From assembly GCA_003235325.1 (NCBI GenBank), contig QJWQ01000099.1, forward strand, positions 1 to 58,367: 58,367 bases of DNA. The letters are read 5' to 3'. Of this stretch, positions 12,604-27,847 are shown in pieces. Numbering within the stretch: the first letter of the stretch is position 1; each line of letters starts with the position of its first letter. A program made the position numbers and the translations under genes. The DNA comes from Gammaproteobacteria bacterium. Lineage in GTDB: Bacteria; Pseudomonadota; Gammaproteobacteria; Pseudomonadales; Porticoccaceae. The notes under the pieces are model-generated. The model was not told the DNA's origin. It saw only the letters and a list, made by a program, of their open reading frames with translations, and ran no database searches.

Positions 12604-13515
12604 CTAGTTTTCAATATTCAGGTGATCGAGAATACCTTCCAGTTCATCGACACTGTTGTAACTTAGCACCAGTCGGCCCTTACCCCTGGCACTGTGCTGA
12701 ATACTGGCAGGAACTCCCACCTTTTCCGATATCCGGTCCTGCAGGCGCTTTATGTCTGGATCCATTCTTGCCGGGCGTACCTTTGGCTGGTTTTCCTGTT
12801 GCTGGAGCCTTCGAACCAGAGCCTCGGTTTGTCTCACGGTCATACCCCTGCCGACCACCTGGCGCGCGGCTTCGACCTGGCGCATTCCGGGCAAGCCGAG
12901 CAGGGCCCTGGCGTGGCCCATTTCCAGATCACCATGTTCCAGAAAGGTTCGCACTTCCTCTTCCAGGGAAATCAGCCGCATCAGGTTGGCTACTGTGGCC
13001 CGGGACTTGCCCACCGCCTGGGCGACCTGCTGCTGGGTCAGTTTGAATTCTTCCTGCAACCGCAGCATGGCATGGGCTTCCTCAATGGGATTCAGGTCCT
13101 CTCGCTGGATATTTTCAATCAGCGCCATGGCTATGGCGGCCTCGTCGGGCACATCCCTGATCAGGGCGGGCACCGTTTCCAGTCCCGCCATCTGGGCGGC
13201 CCGCCAGCGACGTTCGCCGGCGATGATCTCGAAGCGCTGTTCGTCCACAGCTCTGACGACGATGGGTTGCATGATGCCCTGAACGCGAATGGATTCGGCC
13301 AGTTCCTCCAGGGCCTCCGGGTGCATATCCCGCCGCGGCTGGTACTTGCCCCGTTGCAGATACTCTATGGGGATATTTTCGAGTTTGCCGTTCCTGCCGC
13401 CTGCATCTGACGAGTCGGTGGTTTCGTTATCGATGTCCGCAGGCCCCTGGTCCTCCTCGGTAAGTCCGAGCAGGGCGTCCAGCCCCCGACCGAGACCCTT
13501 GCGTTTTCCAGACAT
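12604..13515 (-). CDS. parB: Chromosome partitioning protein ParB (CTPase, parS-binding)
   Basis: Binds parS, spreads along DNA as a CTP-dependent clamp and, with ParA, segregates the origin. The 303-residue protein begins MSGKRKGLGRGLDALLG, the ParA-stimulating N-terminal patch. It contains the CTP-binding box IAGERRWRAAQMAG near residue 115 and the helix-turn-helix TQQQVAQAVGKSRATVANLMRL near 155-180. Its C-terminal dimerisation domain ends EGILDHLNIEN. It lies 3 bases after parA. Two perfect parS sites lie in recF about 11 kb away. Confidence 0.97.
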   Translation of the reverse strand: MSGKRKGLGRGLDALLGLTEEDQGPADIDNETTDSSDAGGRNGKLENIPIEYLQRGKYQPRRDMHPEALEELAESIRVQGIMQPIVVRAVDEQRFEIIAGERRWRAAQMAGLETVPALIRDVPDEAAIAMALIENIQREDLNPIEEAHAMLRLQEEFKLTQQQVAQAVGKSRATVANLMRLISLEEEVRTFLEHGDLEMGHARALLGLPGMRQVEAARQVVGRGMTVRQTEALVRRLQQQENQPKVRPARMDPDIKRLQDRISEKVGVPASIQHSARGKGRLVLSYNSVDELEGILDHLNIEN

Positions 13516-13518
13516 CGG

Positions 13519-14322
13519 TCAGGTACCCTCTACCTGGGTGGCAGCGGAGGCGAGCCCGCGTCTTTCCCGGCGAAGAATTTCACCGGCAAGTCCCAGATAG
13601 GCAATGCATCCCTTTGAGTGACGGTCGTAAATCATCGCCGGCTTGCCATAGCTGGGGGCCTCGGCCAGGCGAACATTGCGGGGAATCGCAATGCGATAAA
13701 CCTTTTCCCCGAAATAACTGTGCAATTGTGCGGTCACTTCATTGGTGAGGGAATTCCGGGGGTCGTACATGGTTCGCAATATCCCCTCGATTTTCAGTTG
13801 AGGATTCAACAGCTTGCCAATTTTTTGAATGGTGCCAACCAGGTCAGACAGTCCCTCGAGGGCGTAATACTCACATTGCATGGGAATGATGACACCGTCG
13901 CAGGCCACCAGGGCATTGACGGTGAGCATGCTCAACGAGGGTGGGCAATCGACAATAATGAAATCATAGTTGTAACGCTGATTGACCAGAACATGGCGAA
14001 GGCGGTTTTCCCGGTTTGGCAACTTCAGCAGTTCCACTTCTGCCGCGGTCAGATCCCTGTTGGCGGGCAGAACATCCAGTGCGGATTCCTCGCAATGTTG
14101 CACTGCCTGCTGAAAGGTGCCCTTGCCGGTAATAACGTCGTATATGGAATACTCCAGGCTGTTCTTGTCGATACCACAACCCATCGTGGCATTGCCCTGT
14201 GGGTCCATGTCCACCAGTAACACCCGCTTGGCATAACTGCCCAGGGAGGCGGCCAGATTGACACTGGTGGTGGTTTTACCCACGCCGCCTTTCTGGTTGG
14301 CAATGGTGAAAATACGACTCAA
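13519..14322 (-). CDS. parA: Chromosome partitioning ATPase ParA (Soj)
   Basis: Walker-type ATPase that binds the nucleoid and moves ParB-parS complexes. The deviant Walker A KGGVGKTTTSVN starts at residue 11, with the signature lysine before GVGKT; VDMDPQGNAT and IIVDCPPSLSML are the A' and B motifs. The 267-residue length fits small chromosomal ParA proteins without an N-terminal DNA-binding domain. The start overlaps the end of rsmG (ATG at 14322, rsmG stop at 14319), so they are translationally linked. Confidence 0.97.
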   Translation of the reverse strand: MSRIFTIANQKGGVGKTTTSVNLAASLGSYAKRVLLVDMDPQGNATMGCGIDKNSLEYSIYDVITGKGTFQQAVQHCEESALDVLPANRDLTAAEVELLKLPNRENRLRHVLVNQRYNYDFIIVDCPPSLSMLTVNALVACDGVIIPMQCEYYALEGLSDLVGTIQKIGKLLNPQLKIEGILRTMYDPRNSLTNEVTAQLHSYFGEKVYRIAIPRNVRLAEAPSYGKPAMIYDRHSKGCIAYLGLAGEILRRERRGLASAATQVEGT

Positions 14323-16855: not shown

Positions 16856-16886
16856 GGTTGCTGTCCACAGGGTAAAAGGGGCAGGG

Positions 16887-16915
16887 ATTATACGCGAACC
16901 TCAGGAAAATTTGAC
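16887..16915 (-). promoter_or_regulatory. Likely promoter of the mnmG operon
   Basis: A perfect -10 TATAAT on the minus strand (16887-16892) lies 31 bases before the mnmG start. The -35 region (16910-16915 on plus reads TTTGAC) does not match well, so activation or an extended contact would be needed. Confidence 0.4.
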
Positions 16916-16929
16916 CACTGCGACACCAG

Positions 16930-17330
16930 TCTTTTTTTTTGGAGCGATTGTCTGCTTACAAAGAAATAATAATTAACATTCTTATATGTGCCTGTATAGG
17001 TAAAGATTAATGTAGATGCTATAGATAGGGAGACCGCCTTCTGTGGATAACCGCACTAAGCCCAGGTCAGCCGTTGAATTTCTGATGGGAACAAGGCCGG
17101 AATATCGCATTGGCAACCTGCTGGAGCCACCCCGTCCAACCTGTGGCTAAATACGCCTTTCTCCACAGGCTTGAATGTTGGGCATTTTTTTTGATCAATC
17201 TATCCCCAGTCTATTCCAACAATTCCATACCGCTTGTCCCCAGTTTTATCAACAGAATAGGCGGATTCGGCGGCCTGTGGATATATCTGTGGATATTGCT
17301 GTTAACAGCCCGCCTGATAAACACCGGCAT
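16930..17330. other. Origin-like intergenic region with DnaA-box cluster (candidate oriC)
   Basis: This 589-base gap between divergent mnmG and rpmH has no gene. It holds an A+T-rich stretch (about 16957-16990) that could unwind, next to one perfect DnaA box (TGTGGATAA, 17042-17050). One-mismatch boxes lie at 17142-17150, 17159-17167, 17276-17284 and 17288-17296, with looser matches at 17200-17208 and 17234-17242. It contains one GATC site, so E. coli-style Dam/SeqA control is not suggested. A gap at this position next to mnmG and rpmH is where gammaproteobacterial origins are often found. The call is an inference from motifs and position. Confidence 0.55.
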
Positions 17331-17344
17331 TTTTTTCAAATGCG

Positions 17345-17373
17345 TTGATAGCTGGGCTTTTTTTCTTTAAAAT
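17345..17373 (+). promoter_or_regulatory. Sigma70-type promoter of rpmH
   Basis: -35 TTGATA (17345-17350), 17-base spacer, -10 TAAAAT (17368-17373). The predicted start near 17380 gives a leader of about 65 bases before rpmH. Confidence 0.7.
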
Positions 17374-17444
17374 CCACCGCCCTTTAATGGCGCCTTCGAG
17401 GTCGCGTCATTAACCCACAGTAAATCAGCAGTGGATATTCGGTA

Positions 17445-17579
17445 ATGAAAAGAACATTTCAGCCCAGCGTTCTTAAAAGAGCACGTACTCACGGTTTTCG
17501 CGCTCGAATGGCAACCAAAAATGGTCGCCTGGTGATCAACCGTCGACGTGCAAAGGGTCGCAAGCGTCTGGCCGCCTGA
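17445..17579 (+). CDS. rpmH: 50S ribosomal protein L34
   Basis: The 44-residue basic protein [18 protein letters not shown]...GRKRLAA is a full-length L34, a component of the large ribosomal subunit near the exit tunnel. It starts the rpmH-rnpA-yidD-yidC-mnmE run, with rnpA beginning 27 bases later, as in most bacteria. Expression should be high and is probably driven by the promoter at 17345-17373. Confidence 0.98.
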
Positions 17580-17606
17580 GACCAGATCCCCGCCTGGGGC
17601 GTATCC

Positions 17607-18029
17607 ATGTCCGGAGCCCCGAGTGAGAACAGCAACACTACTGAAGGCAAATCGGTTAAGAGCGGTTTCGACAAAAGCAGGCGCCTGCTGAATGCCGGTG
17701 ATTTCAAAAATGTATTTGACGGCGCCAGCTTTAAACTGGGCAATGATAGCTTCCTTCTGCTTGCCAGACCCTCTTCCCTAGGCCATGCCCGGTTGGGGTT
17801 GGTGGTTGCCAAAAAAAATATCCGTCGCGCTGTCGATCGAAACCGCATCAAAAGAGTCGTTCGGGAAACGTTCCGTCAATATCAGGATCATCTTGATACC
17901 CTGGATATCGTCTTTCTGGCCAGACGGGGGCTACATATCTTGCCAAATTCTGATCAAACCCGGCTTGTTCGTGAAGGCTGGCGCCGCCTGGAAAAAAAAC
18001 TTGCCCACCAGGGAGGGCGCTCCCGGTGA
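17607..18029 (+). CDS. rnpA: Ribonuclease P protein component
   Basis: Protein subunit of RNase P, which matures the 5' ends of tRNAs with the rnpB RNA (not in this window). The RNR signature region NIRRAVDRNRIKRVVRETFRQ lies near residues 72-92. The 140-residue form carries about 20 extra polar residues before the usual KSRRLLNAGDFKNVF start of the fold. No better start codon exists downstream, so the tail is kept, but its translation is uncertain. The stop overlaps the yidD start. Confidence 0.94.
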   Translation: MSGAPSENSNTTEGKSVKSGFDKSRRLLNAGDFKNVFDGASFKLGNDSFLLLARPSSLGHARLGLVVAKKNIRRAVDRNRIKRVVRETFRQYQDHLDTLDIVFLARRGLHILPNSDQTRLVREGWRRLEKKLAHQGGRSR

Positions 18030-18268
18030 AATGGCTGCTGACCAGGATGATCAGGCTCTACCAGTATCTGCTCAGTCCGCTGTTGGGCAACAACTGTCGC
18101 TTTTACCCCAGTTGTTCCTGTTATGCTCAGCAGGCAATCAATGATCACGGAACCCTGAGAGGGGGTTACCTCAGTCTGCGTCGCGTTCTAAAATGCCACC
18201 CTTTTCATTCCGGTGGCTTTGATCCGGTTCCGGAACCCAAAAAATTTAAACCCCCAGAGTTGAATTAA
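18026..18268 (+). CDS. yidD: Membrane protein insertion efficiency factor YidD
   Basis: Small membrane-associated protein that aids YidC-dependent insertion. The 80-residue product has the family pattern NNCRFYPSCSCYAQQAI with its cysteines and the C-terminal KCHPFHSGGFDPVP motif. It starts with GTG overlapping the rnpA stop (GTGA), indicating coupled translation. yidC follows 2 bases after its stop. Confidence 0.96.
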   Translation: MKWLLTRMIRLYQYLLSPLLGNNCRFYPSCSCYAQQAINDHGTLRGGYLSLRRVLKCHPFHSGGFDPVPEPKKFKPPELN

Positions 18269-18270
18269 CT

Positions 18271-19941
18271 ATGGATTGGCAAAGAAATCTGTTGATCGCC
18301 GGGATTATTGCTGTCCTGGCCATACTGTTTGTCCGCTGGAATGAGTTCAAGGACGACCGTTCCAGCCTCCAGGAAAGTTTTGTCAAGGAAGCCGTCGTGG
18401 TACCTGATGCCGCCGTCGCGCCAGAGGCCAGCGGAGATACCACCGAAGCCATTCCGGACCCATCAACTGCAACCGATGCCAATGAACCGATAACCGGGAC
18501 ATCCTCTTCCTCCCGGCTGATTTCAGTGGTAACGGATGTTCTGGAAGTCACCATCGATACCTATGGCGGAGACATTGTTCGAATCGGCTTGCCTGAACAC
18601 CTGTCAGCCCTGTCAGAAAAATCTGATCCCTTTATCCTGCTTAACCGCACCAGTAGCCAAACCTATATTGCACAAAGCGGTCTAGTCGGCGCCAATGGAA
18701 CAGATACTCGTGAAGGCAGACCGCTGTTTCACGCCGATGCGACCGATTATCATCTGGAGCACGGCAGTGACTTGCTGGAGGTTGACCTGAAGCTGACCCA
18801 GGGTGATGTCAGTATCATCAAACGCTTCAGTTTTCGTCGCGGCGACTACCTGATGGGTGTGGACTACCTGATCGATAACAAGGGACCTGATACCTGGTCA
18901 GCAAGCCTGTTTGGGCAAATACAGCGCAATACCTTTTTGCCGGATGTCAAAAAAGGCATGGGTATGCAACCTTATGTGGGTGCCGCACTGACTACCCCGG
19001 AGGAAAACTACAAGAAGGTTAAATTCTCAGATCTGGATGAAAAGCCTTTCCGTATTGAAAAAATGGGCGGCTGGGTATCCATGGTGCAGCACTACTTTAT
19101 CAGTGCCTGGGTGCCGGACCAACAGCTGTTAAACAAGTTTAATTTAAGAAAGCTAGGCAATCGCGATCTCTATGTCCTGGGGTTTACTTCACCTGTGCTA
19201 CAGGTACCGGCGGGAGAAATCGGTAAAACCGGAGCCAGCTTCTATGCGGGCCCGAAGGACCAATACCGACTGGAGAAGATTTCTCCTTACCTGGATCTGA
19301 CCGTCGATTACGGCTGGCTATGGTGGGTGGCCAAACCCATTTTTTACACCCTGACCCTGATTCACGACCTGGTGGGGAACTGGGGCTGGTCCATTATTTT
19401 ATTGACGATACTTATCAAAGCCCTGTTCTTCAAGCTTTCGGCCACCAGCTACCGTTCCATGGCGAAAATGCGCAAATTGCAGCCGGAGATGGCAAGGCTC
19501 AAAGACCTTTACGGCGATGACCGTCAGAAGCTGTCCCAGGAAATGATGAATTTCTACAAGAAGGAAAAGGTCAATCCCATGGGCGGCTGTCTGCCCATGC
19601 TGATTCAAATGCCGGTGTTCATTGCGCTTTACTGGGTATTATTCGAAAGCGTTGAATTGCGCCACGCCCCCTGGATCCTGTGGATCAAGGACCTGTCGGT
19701 GCAGGATCCCTATTTCGTGCTACCGGTTCTCAACGGCATCAGCATGTTTTTAAGTACTCTGTTGCAGCCGGTGCCACCGGACCCGACCCAGGCCAAGGTA
19801 ATGAAAATCATGCCGGTTGCCTTTTCATTCCTTTTTGCCTTTTTTCCCGCGGGGCTGGTAATTTACTGGACGGTGAACAGCGTTCTCTCAATTCTTCAGC
19901 AATGGATAATAACGCGTCGTATTGAGGCCGGCTCCGGTTAA
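18271..19941 (+). CDS. yidC: Membrane protein insertase YidC
   Basis: Inserts and folds inner-membrane proteins, alone or with SecYEG; the Fo subunits encoded nearby are classic clients. The 556-residue protein has an N-terminal anchor (about residues 7-23) and a low-complexity Ala/Thr/Pro linker. A large periplasmic domain of about 280 residues follows, then the conserved C-terminal core with five helices (GNWGWSIILLTILIK, NPMGGCLPMLIQMPVFIALY). This is the Gram-negative architecture. Confidence 0.97.
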   Translation: MDWQRNLLIAGIIAVLAILFVRWNEFKDDRSSLQESFVKEAVVVPDAAVAPEASGDTTEAIPDPSTATDANEPITGTSSSSRLISVVTDVLEVTIDTYGGDIVRIGLPEHLSALSEKSDPFILLNRTSSQTYIAQSGLVGANGTDTREGRPLFHADATDYHLEHGSDLLEVDLKLTQGDVSIIKRFSFRRGDYLMGVDYLIDNKGPDTWSASLFGQIQRNTFLPDVKKGMGMQPYVGAALTTPEENYKKVKFSDLDEKPFRIEKMGGWVSMVQHYFISAWVPDQQLLNKFNLRKLGNRDLYVLGFTSPVLQVPAGEIGKTGASFYAGPKDQYRLEKISPYLDLTVDYGWLWWVAKPIFYTLTLIHDLVGNWGWSIILLTILIKALFFKLSATSYRSMAKMRKLQPEMARLKDLYGDDRQKLSQEMMNFYKKEKVNPMGGCLPMLIQMPVFIALYWVLFESVELRHAPWILWIKDLSVQDPYFVLPVLNGISMFLSTLLQPVPPDPTQAKVMKIMPVAFSFLFAFFPAGLVIYWTVNSVLSILQQWIITRRIEAGSG

Positions 19942-19969
19942 CAGCCTGTGAAAAGTGCCTGTTTCGTCA

Positions 19970-21334
19970 ATGCCGACTGGTGATCAAGACGTTATAGCGG
20001 CCATAGCCACTGCACCAGGTCGCGGTGGTATCGGTATTGTTCGCATATCGGGAAGTAACCTGTTAACCCTGGTCAGGAACCTGATTCAAACCGAGATCAG
20101 ACCCCGAATCGCCACTGTGGCCAATTTCCTCGATGCCGGTGGTCAGGTCATTGATCAGGGTATCGTTCTTTATTTTACTGCACCTCACTCCTTTACCGGG
20201 GAGGACGTGATCGAACTTCAGGGCCACGGCGGCGCCGTGGTCATGGATAGTCTTTTAGCCAGAGTCATACAGCTGGGGGCACGCCTTGCCCGTCCGGGAG
20301 AATTCTCTGAGCGTGCCTTCCTCAATGGCAAGATCGACCTGGCTCAGGCAGAGGCCATAGCTGATCTTATTGATGCCAGTTCCCGGCAGGCCGCCAGGTC
20401 TGCAATGCGTTCACTGCAGGGGGAATTCTCACGACAGATCCGGGAGTTGGTGGAATCACTGATTCAACTGAGAATCTATGTTGAAGCCGCTATCGACTTT
20501 CCGGAAGAAGATGTGTCATTTCTTAACGATGGTCGGGTGGCTGGTGAAATTCAGCTCTTGCTGTCGGCGTTGGCGTCCATAAAAGACAGGGCGAGGCAGG
20601 GTACCATTCTCCAGGAGGGAATGACTGTAGTCATTGCCGGTAAACCCAATGCGGGAAAATCGAGCCTGCTGAATGCACTGTCCGGGCGTGAGACTGCCAT
20701 TGTTACCGAAATCGCCGGTACCACGAGGGATGTTCTCCGGGAACGTATCGATATCGATGGAATGCCACTACATATCGTCGACACGGCTGGATTGCGTGAA
20801 AGCACCGATGCAGTGGAGCAGGAAGGAATTCGACGCGCCTGGGCTGAAATAGAAGCTGCCGATCAAGTATTGCTGATTATGGACAGTAATGAAGATAGTA
20901 TAAATTTCCCTAATAGCAGCTGGCCCGAGTATTTCCACCGATTTCCAGAAAAATCCAATATTACCCTGGTGCTCAACAAGATCGATTTATCTGACCAAAG
21001 TGACAGTATCGTTCATGGTGAATATACCAGTATTTTTCTTTCTGCCAAAACCGGTCAAGGATTGCCCCTGCTCAGGAATTACCTCAAAGGTTTAATGGGT
21101 TACAGCGGCAGCATCGAGGGTGGTTTCAGTGCACGTCGCAGGCACCTGGAAGCGCTGGAACGCGCTGAACAAAGCATTGAAAATGCCAGAATCCAGTTAA
21201 ATGTCGGAGGCAACGGTGAACTGGTAGCGGAAGACCTGCGCCATGCCCAGCAACAGTTAGGAGAAATTACCGGCGAGTTTACGGCCAATGATCTTCTAGG
21301 CCGGATATTCTCCAGTTTTTGCATCGGAAAGTGA
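19970..21334 (+). CDS. mnmE: tRNA modification GTPase MnmE (TrmE)
   Basis: GTPase partner of MnmG in wobble-uridine modification. It has an N-terminal formyl-folate-binding domain ([20 protein letters not shown]), a helical domain, the inserted G domain ([14 protein letters not shown] near residue 223; [12 protein letters not shown]) and the C-terminal zinc-free FCIGK motif with its conserved Cys. I prefer the ATG at 19970 (454 residues, as in E. coli) to a GTG at 19955. Last gene before the dnaA upstream region. Confidence 0.96.
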
Positions 21335-21666
21335 CTGCCCAGGCAATAACTGGTCACCTATTTAATTCCTTTTAATCGAGCTGAAAAAAATTCCCAAAAA
21401 TATTTTCCAAATACAGGAAGTACACTGCCAAGTTACAGTAAGTTCACAGGTTATCCACAGGAAGTGTTTAAAATATAGCCAATTATCATTGTCAATCCTG
21501 TGTAAAAACACAGCCCTATGTTTTGTGATAACATATTGAAATAAAAGGCGATTTTATATTTTGTTATCGCACAAAACCTAAAAAATTAGTGTGGATAACA
21601 GTGCCGATTCCGGATAGACTTTGTCCCCTTGGAAATACAACAACAATGTCATTGGGGAAGAAAATT
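21335..21666 (+). promoter_or_regulatory. dnaA upstream region with two perfect DnaA boxes and a small palindrome
   Basis: This gene-free stretch is A+T rich. Perfect DnaA boxes lie at 21451-21459 (TTATCCACA) and, inverted, at 21590-21598 (TGTGGATAA), 139 bases apart. The second sits 68 bases before the proposed dnaA start, a good place for DnaA to repress its own gene. The palindrome CTGTGT-AAAA-ACACAG spans 21498-21513. I could not find a convincing -35/-10 pair. This could be the dnaA promoter, part of the origin, or both. Confidence 0.55.
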
Positions 21667-23094
21667 TTGGCTGAATTGGTGTGGGAAAAATGCCTGGATC
21701 ATCTACAGGATGAATTACCGGCACAACAATTTAATACCTGGATACGACCTCTTCGCATAGAAGAAAAGCCGTCTTCTGATGCGGACAGAAAGCTGCATCT
21801 GATGGCCCCAAATCGCTTTGTACAGGATTGGGTATCAGACAAGTTTTTGGGAAGAATCGTGGAACTGTTTTCGGAGATGGCCGGGGTAAAGTACGATATT
21901 GTTATCAACTCTTCCGCAAGCAGGTCCCCTGCATACTTGCAAAACATTAACCATCGTGACCCGGTAGTACCTGCCAACCCGGCACCGCAAGTCAGTGCAG
22001 AACAGCCAGGAAAATTTAAGCAGACGCAAATTAGCACAGATCAATCCGCTGCTATTGAAGGGGGCTTGCGCCACGAAAGTAATCTGAATGGCACTTTTAC
22101 CTTTGACTCTTTTGTCGAGGGCAAATCAAACCAACTGGCAATGGCTGCCGCACGTCAGGTTGCTGAAAACCCGGGCGGAGCCTACAACCCTCTGTTTATC
22201 TACGGTGGTGTCGGATTGGGTAAAACTCACTTGATGCATGCAGTTGGCAATGCCCTGAGGCAGAAAAACCCAAATGCAAAAGTGGTATATCTGCACTCGG
22301 AACGCTTTGTTGCCGACATGGTCAAGGCTCTTCAGCTAAATGCCATCAATGACTTCAAACGTTTTTACCGTTCTGTTGATGCGCTCCTCATTGACGATAT
22401 TCAGTTTTTTGCCGGCAAGGAACGGTCACAGGAAGAATTTTTCCACACCTTTAATGCCCTTCTTGAAGGTGGTCAACAGATGATCCTTACCTGTGACCGC
22501 TATCCCAAGGAAATAAGGGGGCTTGAAGAGCGGTTAAAATCCCGTTTTGGCTGGGGCCTGACAGTGGCCGTGGAGCCGCCGGAACTGGAGACCAGGGTGG
22601 CGATTCTGATGAAGAAAGCTCAACAGGCCAATATGGAATTGCCCCACGATGTCGCTTTTTTTGTCGGTCAGCGTATTCGTTCAAATGTTCGGGAATTGGA
22701 GGGGGCATTGAAGCGGGTCATTGCCAGTGCCCACTTTACCGGCCGGCCCATTGATATTGAATTAATTCGCGATTCTCTTAAGGATTTATTGGCGCTACAG
22801 GATAAGCTGGTTACCATAGACAATATTCAGCGAACTGTCGCAGAGTACTTTAAGATAAAGATGTCTGATCTGCTATCTAAGAGGCGAAGTCGATCCATTG
22901 CACGTCCCAGGCAAGTAGCCATGGCGCTAGCCAAGGAGCTTACCAACCACAGTTTGCCAGAGATTGGGGAAGCCTTTGGCGGACGCGACCACACCACGGT
23001 GCTCCACGCCTGTCGCAAGGTCAAGGAACTCAGTGAAACCACCAGGGATATGCGTGAAGACATGAAAAACCTGATGCGCACCCTGACAACCTAA
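21667..23094 (+). CDS. dnaA: Chromosomal replication initiator protein DnaA
   Basis: AAA+ ATPase that binds DnaA boxes and melts the origin. Walker [15 protein letters not shown] and Walker [14 protein letters not shown] are intact. Domain IV carries the DNA-binding signature [15 protein letters not shown] near the C-terminus. I place the start at a TTG (21667) because GGGGAAG lies six bases upstream and because it leaves five residues before the conserved Trp ([10 protein letters not shown]), exactly as in E. coli. Alternatives are ATG 21646 and a GTG at 21589 that falls inside a DnaA box. A weak start would fit a tightly limited initiator. Confidence 0.97.
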
Positions 23095-23148
23095 ATTACC
23101 TGCCAACATTTCACCACGCCCAAAATAATTGTTTGGATGACAAAACCT

Positions 23149-24255
23149 ATGAAGTTCACTATCTTGCGGGAAGAATTTCTAAAGCCGCTGCAACTAGTCG
23201 TCGGTGTTGTTGAACGGCGTCAGACCCTGCCAATCCTTTCCCATGTGCTAATAAGTCTTGATGAACTCGGGCAACTGTCACTCACGGGCACTGATCTGGA
23301 GGTTGAAATCGTGGGTAAGGTGGCGTTGGATATGCACGATAATGAACCGGGTGAAATAACCGTGCCCGCACGAAAACTGATGGATATCTGCCGGTCGCTG
23401 CCGGAAGAGGCTGTTCTGGAAATTTCGAGCAAGGATGATCGTACAGTTCTCACCAGTAAAAGGAGCCGGTTTACTCTCTCCAGTTTGCCGGCCAGTGAAT
23501 TTCCCTCTGTAGATGACAGTCCTGGACAGGTGGAGTTTTCGATGCCTGCACAGGCACTGAAGCAACTTATTGACAGCACAGCCTTTGCAATGGCGCACCA
23601 GGATGTGCGTTATTATCTGAATGGCATGCTCTGGGAGGCAAACTCGGGCTCTCTAAATACTGTAGCAACTGACGGACATCGTTTGGCAATGTCTACCAGG
23701 GAAATGCCCGTTTCGGTACCCAATAAAGTCCAGATTATTATTCCGAGAAAAGGCGTCCTTGAATTGTCGAAAATGCTCATCGACGGCAAGGAAGTTACGG
23801 TCGTTTTGGGGAGTAATCACGTTCGAGTACTGGGTCCTGACTTTCGCTTTACATCAAAACTGGTGGATGGCGCCTACCCGGACTATGAGAGAGTGCTGCC
23901 CAGGGGTGGAACTAAAATTGTTGCGGCGGACCGGGAGTCACTACGCCAGGCATTTGTACGTACAGCTATTCTCTCGAACGAAAAATACCGGGGCGTTCGA
24001 CTTCTTCTCGAGAACGGATCTCTTAAAATGGTGGCCAACAATCCTGAGCAGGAACAAGCTGAAGAGGAAGTCAGCGTTGAATACCACGGAGACAGTCTGG
24101 AAATTGGTTTCAATGTTAGCTATATCCTCGACGTTTTAAATGTCCTCAAGGGCGATACCATTCGTTTTGTTCTCTCCGACGCTAACAGTAGTGCACTAAT
24201 TGAAGACCCCCGGAATTCAGAATCTGTTTACGTGATAATGCCCATGCGGCTTTGA
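23149..24255 (+). CDS. dnaN: DNA polymerase III beta subunit (sliding clamp)
   Basis: Ring-shaped clamp that holds polymerase III on DNA. The 368-residue protein starts MKFTILREEFLKPLQLVVGVVERRQTLPILSHVL and ends VYVIMPMRL, both standard. I chose ATG 23149 on family grounds; ATG 23137 would add four residues. It lies 54 bases after dnaA and 22 before recF, so one dnaA-dnaN-recF-gyrB operon is likely. Confidence 0.98.
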   Translation: MKFTILREEFLKPLQLVVGVVERRQTLPILSHVLISLDELGQLSLTGTDLEVEIVGKVALDMHDNEPGEITVPARKLMDICRSLPEEAVLEISSKDDRTVLTSKRSRFTLSSLPASEFPSVDDSPGQVEFSMPAQALKQLIDSTAFAMAHQDVRYYLNGMLWEANSGSLNTVATDGHRLAMSTREMPVSVPNKVQIIIPRKGVLELSKMLIDGKEVTVVLGSNHVRVLGPDFRFTSKLVDGAYPDYERVLPRGGTKIVAADRESLRQAFVRTAILSNEKYRGVRLLLENGSLKMVANNPEQEQAEEEVSVEYHGDSLEIGFNVSYILDVLNVLKGDTIRFVLSDANSSALIEDPRNSESVYVIMPMRL

Positions 24256-24277: not shown

Positions 24278-25402
24278 ATGTATCTGAAGCAGCTGTCGGT
24301 GCACGGGCTGCGAAATTTAATCCACAGTCAGCTGAATCTTTCTCCCGGAGCAAACTTGCTCTATGGCGCCAATGGCAGCGGCAAGACCAGTGTCCTGGAA
24401 GCTATATATCTGCTGGGACGAGGTCGATCTTTTCGTACACGAAATTTGCGTTCTGTCATTAATCACCAGGCTGACCAGTGTACTGTTTATGGCATCATCG
24501 CAAATCCTGAAAATTCCAAAGTTGCCGATATCCCAATCGGTGTTTCAAGGTCCAGGGGTGGGCAATTCAAATTTAAAATTTCCGGTGAGCCTGTACATAA
24601 CGCCTCAAGGTTGATAGATCAATTGCCTTTGCAGTTAATGAATGCAGAAAGCTTTCAGTTGTTAGAAGGCTCTCCCCAAAATCGAAGACGTTTGATTGAT
24701 TGGGGCGTGTTCCACGTGGAACATCGCTATCGTGACCTCTGGTCCAGGTATCAACGTAGTCTGAAGCAACGGAATTCCCTGTTGCGCCATGCTAAAATAG
24801 ACCGGTTACATCTGGCTGTCTGGGATAGGGAGTTCTCAGATCTGGCTGAAAATATTACGGCTTTTCGACAGCAATACCTCGACACCTACCTGCCATTGGT
24901 GAAAAAAATTGCATCGGAATTTGAAATATTTCCCGAGCCTGAATTGCGCTTTTATCCAGGGTGGGATACCCGATTTCAATACCCGGATGTATTGAGTGAA
25001 AATTTTGATCGAGACCGGGCAGCCGGCCGTACCAGTGCAGGCCCTCACAGAGCCGATCTTCAAGTAATATTGAACGGTAAGCCTGCTACTGAGGTGCTCT
25101 CCAGGGGCCAAACCAAGGTCATGGTATCTCTGTTGTTGATTGCACAGGGCTATGCTTTTCGCCAAAGTACGGGCCAAAACTGTGTTTATTTGCTCGATGA
25201 TTTGCCTGCTGAACTTGATCGGCGTAATCGAATAAAAACAGGGGAATTATTGGAATCACTCCATTCACAGGTTTTTATCACCGGGGTTGAAGAAGACAAC
25301 CTGAAGAATACTTGGCCCTCGAGAAATATGGATGGTGGTGATGTAGAAGCCAGGATGTTCCACGTGGAACATGGAAAAATCATCCAAGTAGCGGGTAATT
25401 AA
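24278..25402 (+). CDS. recF: DNA replication/repair protein RecF (carries two parS sites)
   Basis: ABC/SMC-like ATPase acting with RecO and RecR to load RecA at gaps. Walker A YGANGSGKTSVLEAI begins near residue 29, the signature TSAGPHRADLQV lies near 250, and the D-loop region LLDDLPAELD follows. At 374 residues it is longer than the E. coli protein (357); the extra tail encodes a parS palindrome as MFHVEH (360-365). A second parS is encoded as VFHVEH (144-149). The protein sequence at both places therefore appears tied to ParB binding. Confidence 0.96.
   Translation: MYLKQLSVHGLRNLIHSQLNLSPGANLLYGANGSGKTSVLEAIYLLGRGRSFRTRNLRSVINHQADQCTVYGIIANPENSKVADIPIGVSRSRGGQFKFKISGEPVHNASRLIDQLPLQLMNAESFQLLEGSPQNRRRLIDWGVFHVEHRYRDLWSRYQRSLKQRNSLLRHAKIDRLHLAVWDREFSDLAENITAFRQQYLDTYLPLVKKIASEFEIFPEPELRFYPGWDTRFQYPDVLSENFDRDRAAGRTSAGPHRADLQVILNGKPATEVLSRGQTKVMVSLLLIAQGYAFRQSTGQNCVYLLDDLPAELDRRNRIKTGELLESLHSQVFITGVEEDNLKNTWPSRNMDGGDVEARMFHVEHGKIIQVAGN
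24708..24723. promoter_or_regulatory. parS site 1 (ParB-binding palindrome) inside recF
   Basis: TGTTCCACGTGGAACA is a perfect 16-base palindrome of the bacterial parS type, with the GTTCCACGTGGAAC core used by Pseudomonas-type ParB. It is read in the RecF frame as VFHVEH. A parB gene is in the same window. Confidence 0.9.
25356..25371. promoter_or_regulatory. parS site 2 (ParB-binding palindrome) at the recF 3' end
   Basis: An identical perfect 16-base palindrome, 648 bases after site 1 and 31 bases before the recF stop codon ends. It is read in the same phase as site 1, as MFHVEH, in a RecF tail beyond the usual end of the family. Confidence 0.9.
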
Positions 25403-25417
25403 AATGAGATGGTATAA

Positions 25418-27847
<2,430 letters not shown>

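Follow-up and report, generated by a model that had tools for sequence, protein, structure and literature searches.

The recF gene in a 58,367-nucleotide stretch of DNA (the window) from an uncultured member of the Porticoccaceae carries two identical 16-bp palindromes. These are most probably parS sites (we put the probability at about 0.94), that is, loading sites of the chromosomal ParB encoded 10–12 kb away, inherited inside recF since early Gammaproteobacteria and fixing codons and restricting residues of the host protein. ParB of ParABS systems is a CTP-dependent clamp that loads at the parS to which it binds, then spreads and is moved by ParA. Gene comparison shows here that selection keeps a ParB-type palindrome intact at both places in recF; that the ParB of this uncultured organism binds the two sites we infer by analogy with Pseudomonas aeruginosa.

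Two palindromes within recF, close to the origin

The palindrome TGTTCCACGTGGAACA occurs at 24708–24723 (site 1) and at 25356–25371 (site 2), 648 bp apart from start to start. Both copies lie in the recF frame and are split as TG-TTC-CAC-GTG-GAA-CA, giving V-FHVEH at RecF residues 144–149 and M-FHVEH at residues 360–365. Coordinates and translation agree with the original prediction, which had described an identical 16-base palindrome twice in the RecF frame as FHVEH. Both copies match the parS consensus TGTTYCACGTGRAACA exactly, and they occupy the positions of P. aeruginosa parS1 and parS2, respectively (PMC5098823, PMC5521831). At up to three mismatches the window holds three matches, versus 0.25 expected by chance. 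The two exact copies are the only ones in the whole assembly (3.26 Mb), both in recF; the assembly has no further copy at 0–1 mismatch, and its next best match has two mismatches and a different centre. Completeness of this draft genome is 94.5%, so another parS could have escaped the assembly.

The host gene (24278–25402, plus strand, 374 aa) is recF by its TIGR00611 score (341.6 bits against a cut-off of 172), by alignment to E. coli K-12 RecF and by its neighbours, dnaN upstream and gyrB downstream. Site 2 had been placed in an extra C-terminal tail that might exist only to host parS. Residue 360 does lie beyond the 357 residues of E. coli RecF, yet site 2 aligns with E. coli residues 347–352 (MFTVEK), and MFHVEHGKIIQ of the window stands over MFTVEKGKITD, the last 11 residues of the E. 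coli protein. The 17 surplus residues are made up of ∼ 13 residues in internal insertions, most of them just before site 2, and four terminal residues; across the class, 0–28 residues (mostly 6–8) follow site 2. The alignment thus rules out the extra tail: site 2 sits in the ancestral RecF end shared with E. coli, so no tail was made here as a home for parS. Elsewhere, one genome (L118) does have a parS, read in a different frame as CSTWN, over the last residues of RecF, and in four more (L177, L187, L059 and L076) a parS lies within a few bases after the recF stop codon.

The sites are embedded in the block dnaA (21589–23094, TIGR00362), dnaN (23137–24255, TIGR00663), recF and gyrB (25424–27847, TIGR01059), all on the plus strand. 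The AT-rich gap before dnaA (21335–21588) is a candidate oriC; it has a DnaA box, TTATCCACA, at 21451–21459, with another box at 21590–21598, and lies ∼ 3.1 kb from site 1. Both palindromes are presumably read by the product of parB (12604–13515, minus strand; TIGR00180 and Pfam PF02195, PF17762 and PF23552), which has the N-terminal (ParB_N), helix–turn–helix (HTH_ParB) and C-terminal dimerization (ParB_C) domains. The gene adjoins parA (13519–14322, minus strand), which encodes the partition ATPase. The parAB operon that the original prediction placed 10–11 kb away is present, with parB and parA at ∼ 10–12 kb from the sites.

The gene order next to dnaA deserves separate mention. The genes parB-parA-rsmG-mnmG are on the minus strand, and rpmH-rnpA-yidC-mnmE (17445–21334) lies directly upstream of dnaA on the plus strand, the strand of dnaA-dnaN-recF-gyrB, and is divergent from mnmG-rsmG-parA-parB. 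In Pseudomonas, the rpmH-rnpA-yidC-mnmE block is on the strand opposite to dnaA. Misassembly was ruled out, since the order is identical in all seven family relatives with both flanks readable, which indicates a stable rearrangement. As a consequence there are two candidate oriC gaps, the one before dnaA and an alternative before rpmH (16856–17445); the GC skew changes sign at ∼ 20 kb of the window.

Inheritance of the pair and its loss with ParB

We surveyed 58 family and order relatives, the genome itself included. A parS within one mismatch is present in 50 of the 58, usually two per genome, and all 75 positions within one mismatch, among the matches listed, are inside recF. Almost every family member has the pair intact. 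The survey was widened with two sets of RecF genes, 194 over the class and 80 from named genomes, with few in both. In these ∼ 270 RecFs of Gammaproteobacteria, the positions of sites 1 and 2 are usually parS or one-mismatch parS, and carriers at both include Pseudomonas, Halopseudomonas, Stutzerimonas, Haliea, Microbulbifer, Idiomarina and Pseudoalteromonas; in Haliea and Microbulbifer both sites are exact. Other Pseudomonas species have the parS1 and parS2 sequences in their recF at the positions that align with sites 1 and 2. In 24 RecFs taken from the phylum's other classes, neither position carries the motif; site 1 there is, for example, DWLVFSRRR or DRLVLAxDP. Judged by this pattern of presence and absence, the pair probably arose close to the root of the Gammaproteobacteria (in the GTDB sense).

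The sites can move. In three members of a sister genus within the family (g12; L026, L029 and L039) the usual site 1 is lost and reads LFHTHP, VFHTVP and LFHTAS, and a perfect TGTTTCACGTGAAACA is found at RecF residue ∼ 88 in another frame, where it is read as VSRET. In another genome (L117) a relocated parS lies at RecF residue ∼ 293. Relocated sites were taken from individually re-examined matches alone, since the identical 18-mers of sites 1 and 2 can make site 2 count twice.

Two further observations concern copy number. Six genomes, five mainly of Halomonas type (L206, L219, L228, L229 and L240) and one of the Aeromonadaceae (L230), have an extra parS close to where gyrB ends, ∼ 2.45 kb past the stop of recF. 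Genome G001 has two recF copies, on contigs C6 and C7, with two perfect parS in each; stops interrupt the tblastn pieces of the C7 copy, so that it may be a pseudogene, a duplication or contamination.

Maintenance of the sites follows the presence of ParB. ParB was called by similarity score, with chromosomal-type ParB scored as absent at no match or at an E-value of 7e-14 or weaker (the other 24 tested gave 2e-77 or stronger); in incomplete genomes, absence may equal missing data. The exact recF site is kept in none of 16 named ParB-less genomes, which are Enterobacterales and Orbaceae such as Klebsiella, Yersinia, Proteus, Pantoea and Gilliamella; they read mostly CFHNEP at site 1 and MF[R/T/S/N]VE[K/Q/H] at site 2. 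When six ParB-less genomes from the class set are added, both sites are within one mismatch in 105 of 151 genomes with ParB versus 0 of 22 without (P = 1e-10), a count of non-independent genomes whose ParB-less set is mostly Enterobacterales. The contrast remains in the class genomes alone (P = 5e-4). One clade dominates this comparison of genomes; the better-controlled test is the parsimony count given below, which allows for shared descent. Within a single genus (g61), the ParB-carrying member has its sites at 1 and 0 mismatches, and of the two ParB-less members one has 3 and 2 mismatches and the other 3 and 1.

Three ParB-less genomes (L262, L264 and L270; Pantoea, Brenneria and Yersinia) have TGTTCCGCGTGGAACA at site 2, one mismatch from parS with His changed to Arg, which is a probable fossil parS in RecF.

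These data bear on whether the palindromes are degenerate relics, with the working centromere elsewhere in the genome. Such a reading would be helped by the draft state of the assembly and by ParB-carrying lineages, for example Vibrio and Marinomonas, that lack intact recF sites; we nevertheless rate it as very improbable, given that both sites are perfect palindromes, that the assembly has no other copy at 0–1 mismatch and that almost every member of the family has both intact. One or both recF sites have been lost in ParB-carrying Vibrio, Shewanella, Marinomonas and Salinicola, so the recF location is not obligatory; these genera presumably use parS elsewhere. In four Vibrio genomes (L233, L238, L244 and L246) and one Shewanella (L254), site 1 is destroyed and site 2 is TGTTYCATGTGGAACA, with a CATGTG centre. 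This sequence recurs at site 2 in several species of ParB-carrying genera and is either a relic or a variant site.

Codons and residues follow the palindrome

For codon analysis, sites were chosen by peptide (.FH[VM][EK].), never by codon, giving 332 sites. The named set had been retrieved partly by a pattern with FHVE[HQ] and is biased for peptide, though not for codons; codon statistics were taken from the 194. His is encoded by CAC at 321 core sites and by CAT at 11, Val by GTG at 319 and by GTA at 4 (n = 323), and Lys by AAA at 54 and by AAG at 1. Glu is GAA at all 277 sites, with no GAG, versus 55% GAA gene-wide. With the average codon use of the same genes (CAC 48%, GTG 41%, GAA 55%), nearly nine in ten sites would be expected to be broken. 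FHVEH retained with palindrome-breaking codons, the pattern named in the original prediction as speaking against it, is thus rare: the palindrome is broken in 15 of 323 FHV[EK] sites.

The strongest codon biases fall on seven of the 120 testable RecF columns, namely V144, H146, V147, E148, H362, V363 and E364. A parsimony count on a RecF tree from which the site residues had been left out finds the fewest synonymous changes at codons 144, 146–148 and 362–364 (0.007–0.058 per sequence), versus at least 0.194 per sequence at the remaining 113 columns.

The amino acids themselves also follow the DNA. The codon before Phe ends in G at 331 of the 332 sites, the exception being one Ile (ATA), and the residue it encodes is of ten kinds (V, L, M, R, A, T, K, W, S and Q). 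The last codon begins with C at every one of the 332 sites and encodes H, Q, P or R, which, Leu excepted, are the residues with C-initial codons. Position 5 is Glu (GAA) or Lys (AAA), and Lys pairs with TTT, as in TGTTTCACGTGAAACA compared with TGTTCCACGTGGAACA. The covariation of Glu/Lys with the silent TTC/TTT choice has an odds ratio of 12.8 (P = 8e-14; P = 7e-12 after GC3 correction), versus an odds ratio of 1.6 (P = 0.19) for the same link elsewhere in RecF. The paired change restores the palindrome at the cost of a charge reversal.

Could the FHVEH peptide instead be what matters to RecF, the palindrome arising secondarily from conserved protein sequence and preferred codons? F145, H146 and E148 are common to the RecF of E. 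coli, a host without ParB, and F361, V363 and G366 are general RecF residues. Such an origin would not explain why synonymous positions are near-frozen at these codons only, why Glu-to-Lys reversals and V, L, M, R, T, K, Q, W, A or S before Phe are tolerated only with the DNA motif kept, or why parS shifts to another frame. Moreover, once ParB is gone, H146 is retained in nearly all RecFs and its codon drifts (14 CAT, 8 CAC). The codon and covariation tests rule the peptide out as the primary cause, and we give this explanation very little weight. Protein constraint nevertheless acts on part of the motif, since ParB-less Enterobacterales still have F145 and H146 and, in many cases, E148; the persistence of F145 and H146 without ParB implies a separate protein-level value. 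The proposal that RecF sequence has been kept or shaped by ParB binding is supported in the main, though overstated for F145 and H146. The broader claim that one DNA stretch carries both protein and centromere information is borne out by the near-frozen synonymous positions, the residues that follow the palindrome, the disappearance of the pair from ParB-less lineages and the change of frame.

Least probable of all is that the palindrome is another DNA or RNA element (a regulator operator, a CACGTG modification target or an RNA hairpin) to which ParB is irrelevant: it is a perfect inverted repeat within a transcribed operon and CACGTG motifs do have other uses, but all 16 positions fit parS, asymmetric variants (TTCCAC/GTGAAA) included, site loss tracks ParB loss, ParB is found on these sites in P. 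aeruginosa, and an operator would not be confined to two copies in recF.

Known systems and biological meaning

The universal chromosomal parS/ParABS system of B. subtilis and C. crescentus resembles the present one: its palindrome is likewise of 16 bp, centred on CACGTG and close to oriC, and parAB is in the vicinity. In those two organisms the parS sites are scattered over several genes and intergenic gaps, whereas common descent has confined the present ones to a single gene. In Xanthomonas citri a parS, TGTTCCACGTGGAACG, has been reported at the 3′ end of dnaN (PMC3937727); it is similarly located in or at the end of a dnaA-operon gene, although the reported gene differs (dnaN rather than recF). 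The closest parallel is P. aeruginosa, whose parS1 and parS2, stated to be the parS sites nearest oriC, are within recF (PMC5521831; PMC3909081). In PAO1 the gene and the 16-bp motif are the same, and ChIP-seq shows in vivo ParB occupancy at parS1 (TGTTCCACGTGGAACC) and parS2 (TGTTCCACGTGGAACA) (PMC5098823). Two differences are apparent: site 1 here ends in CA (His) and PAO1 parS1 in CC (Pro), and PAO1 has two more in vivo sites outside recF (parS3 and parS4), whereas every site found here is in recF. One of the four suffices in P. aeruginosa, and loss of all four yields ∼ 25% anucleate cells (PMC5098823); protein-neutral mutations served to inactivate the intragenic sites (PMC4368675). These ChIP-seq and mutant data support ParB action at the recF pair (PMC5098823; PMC4368675).

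Since the recF parS sites of P. aeruginosa are already published and ParB-bound, the object itself is known. Our search of the literature on recF and parS returned only the P. aeruginosa statements. The papers it covered describe neither the orthology of the sites across the class nor the measurement at codon level, the rule for amino acids or the relocation; for the class-wide pattern the parS survey of Livny et al. (2007) may be a precedent.

By this reading of the palindromes as parS, ParB would bind the recF pair, load as a clamp and spread over the origin region, and ParA would move the ParB-covered region to the daughter cell. The pair would have been inherited within recF since early in the class (GTDB sense), with selection on the DNA motif fixing codons and limiting amino acids at RecF 144–149 and 360–365. 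Most of the FHV[E/K][H/Q/P/R] signature would then be a centromere by-product within segments that RecF has anyway.

We also considered whether residence in recF is itself used, ParB loading on the transcribed dnaA-dnaN-recF-gyrB block coupling segregation to the expression of replication genes. This would account for the persistence of the pair in a single gene through most of the class and for the occasional replacement of lost sites in recF or just past its stop. Excess ParB reduces expression of this region in P. aeruginosa (PMC5521831), but genes adjoining the intragenic parS1/2 were unresponsive to ParB loss at native levels. We regard such coupling as doubtful.

The recF pair offers a clean natural case of a centromere inside a protein-coding gene, in which a DNA function overrides codon choice and, in part, amino-acid choice class-wide, with the ParB-less lineages as a matched control. 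Conserved residues in an alignment can thus reflect DNA binding rather than protein function, and mutational work on RecF FHVEH should tell DNA from protein roles. For uncultured gammaproteobacteria the finding supplies a simple rule for locating the centromere: look in recF.
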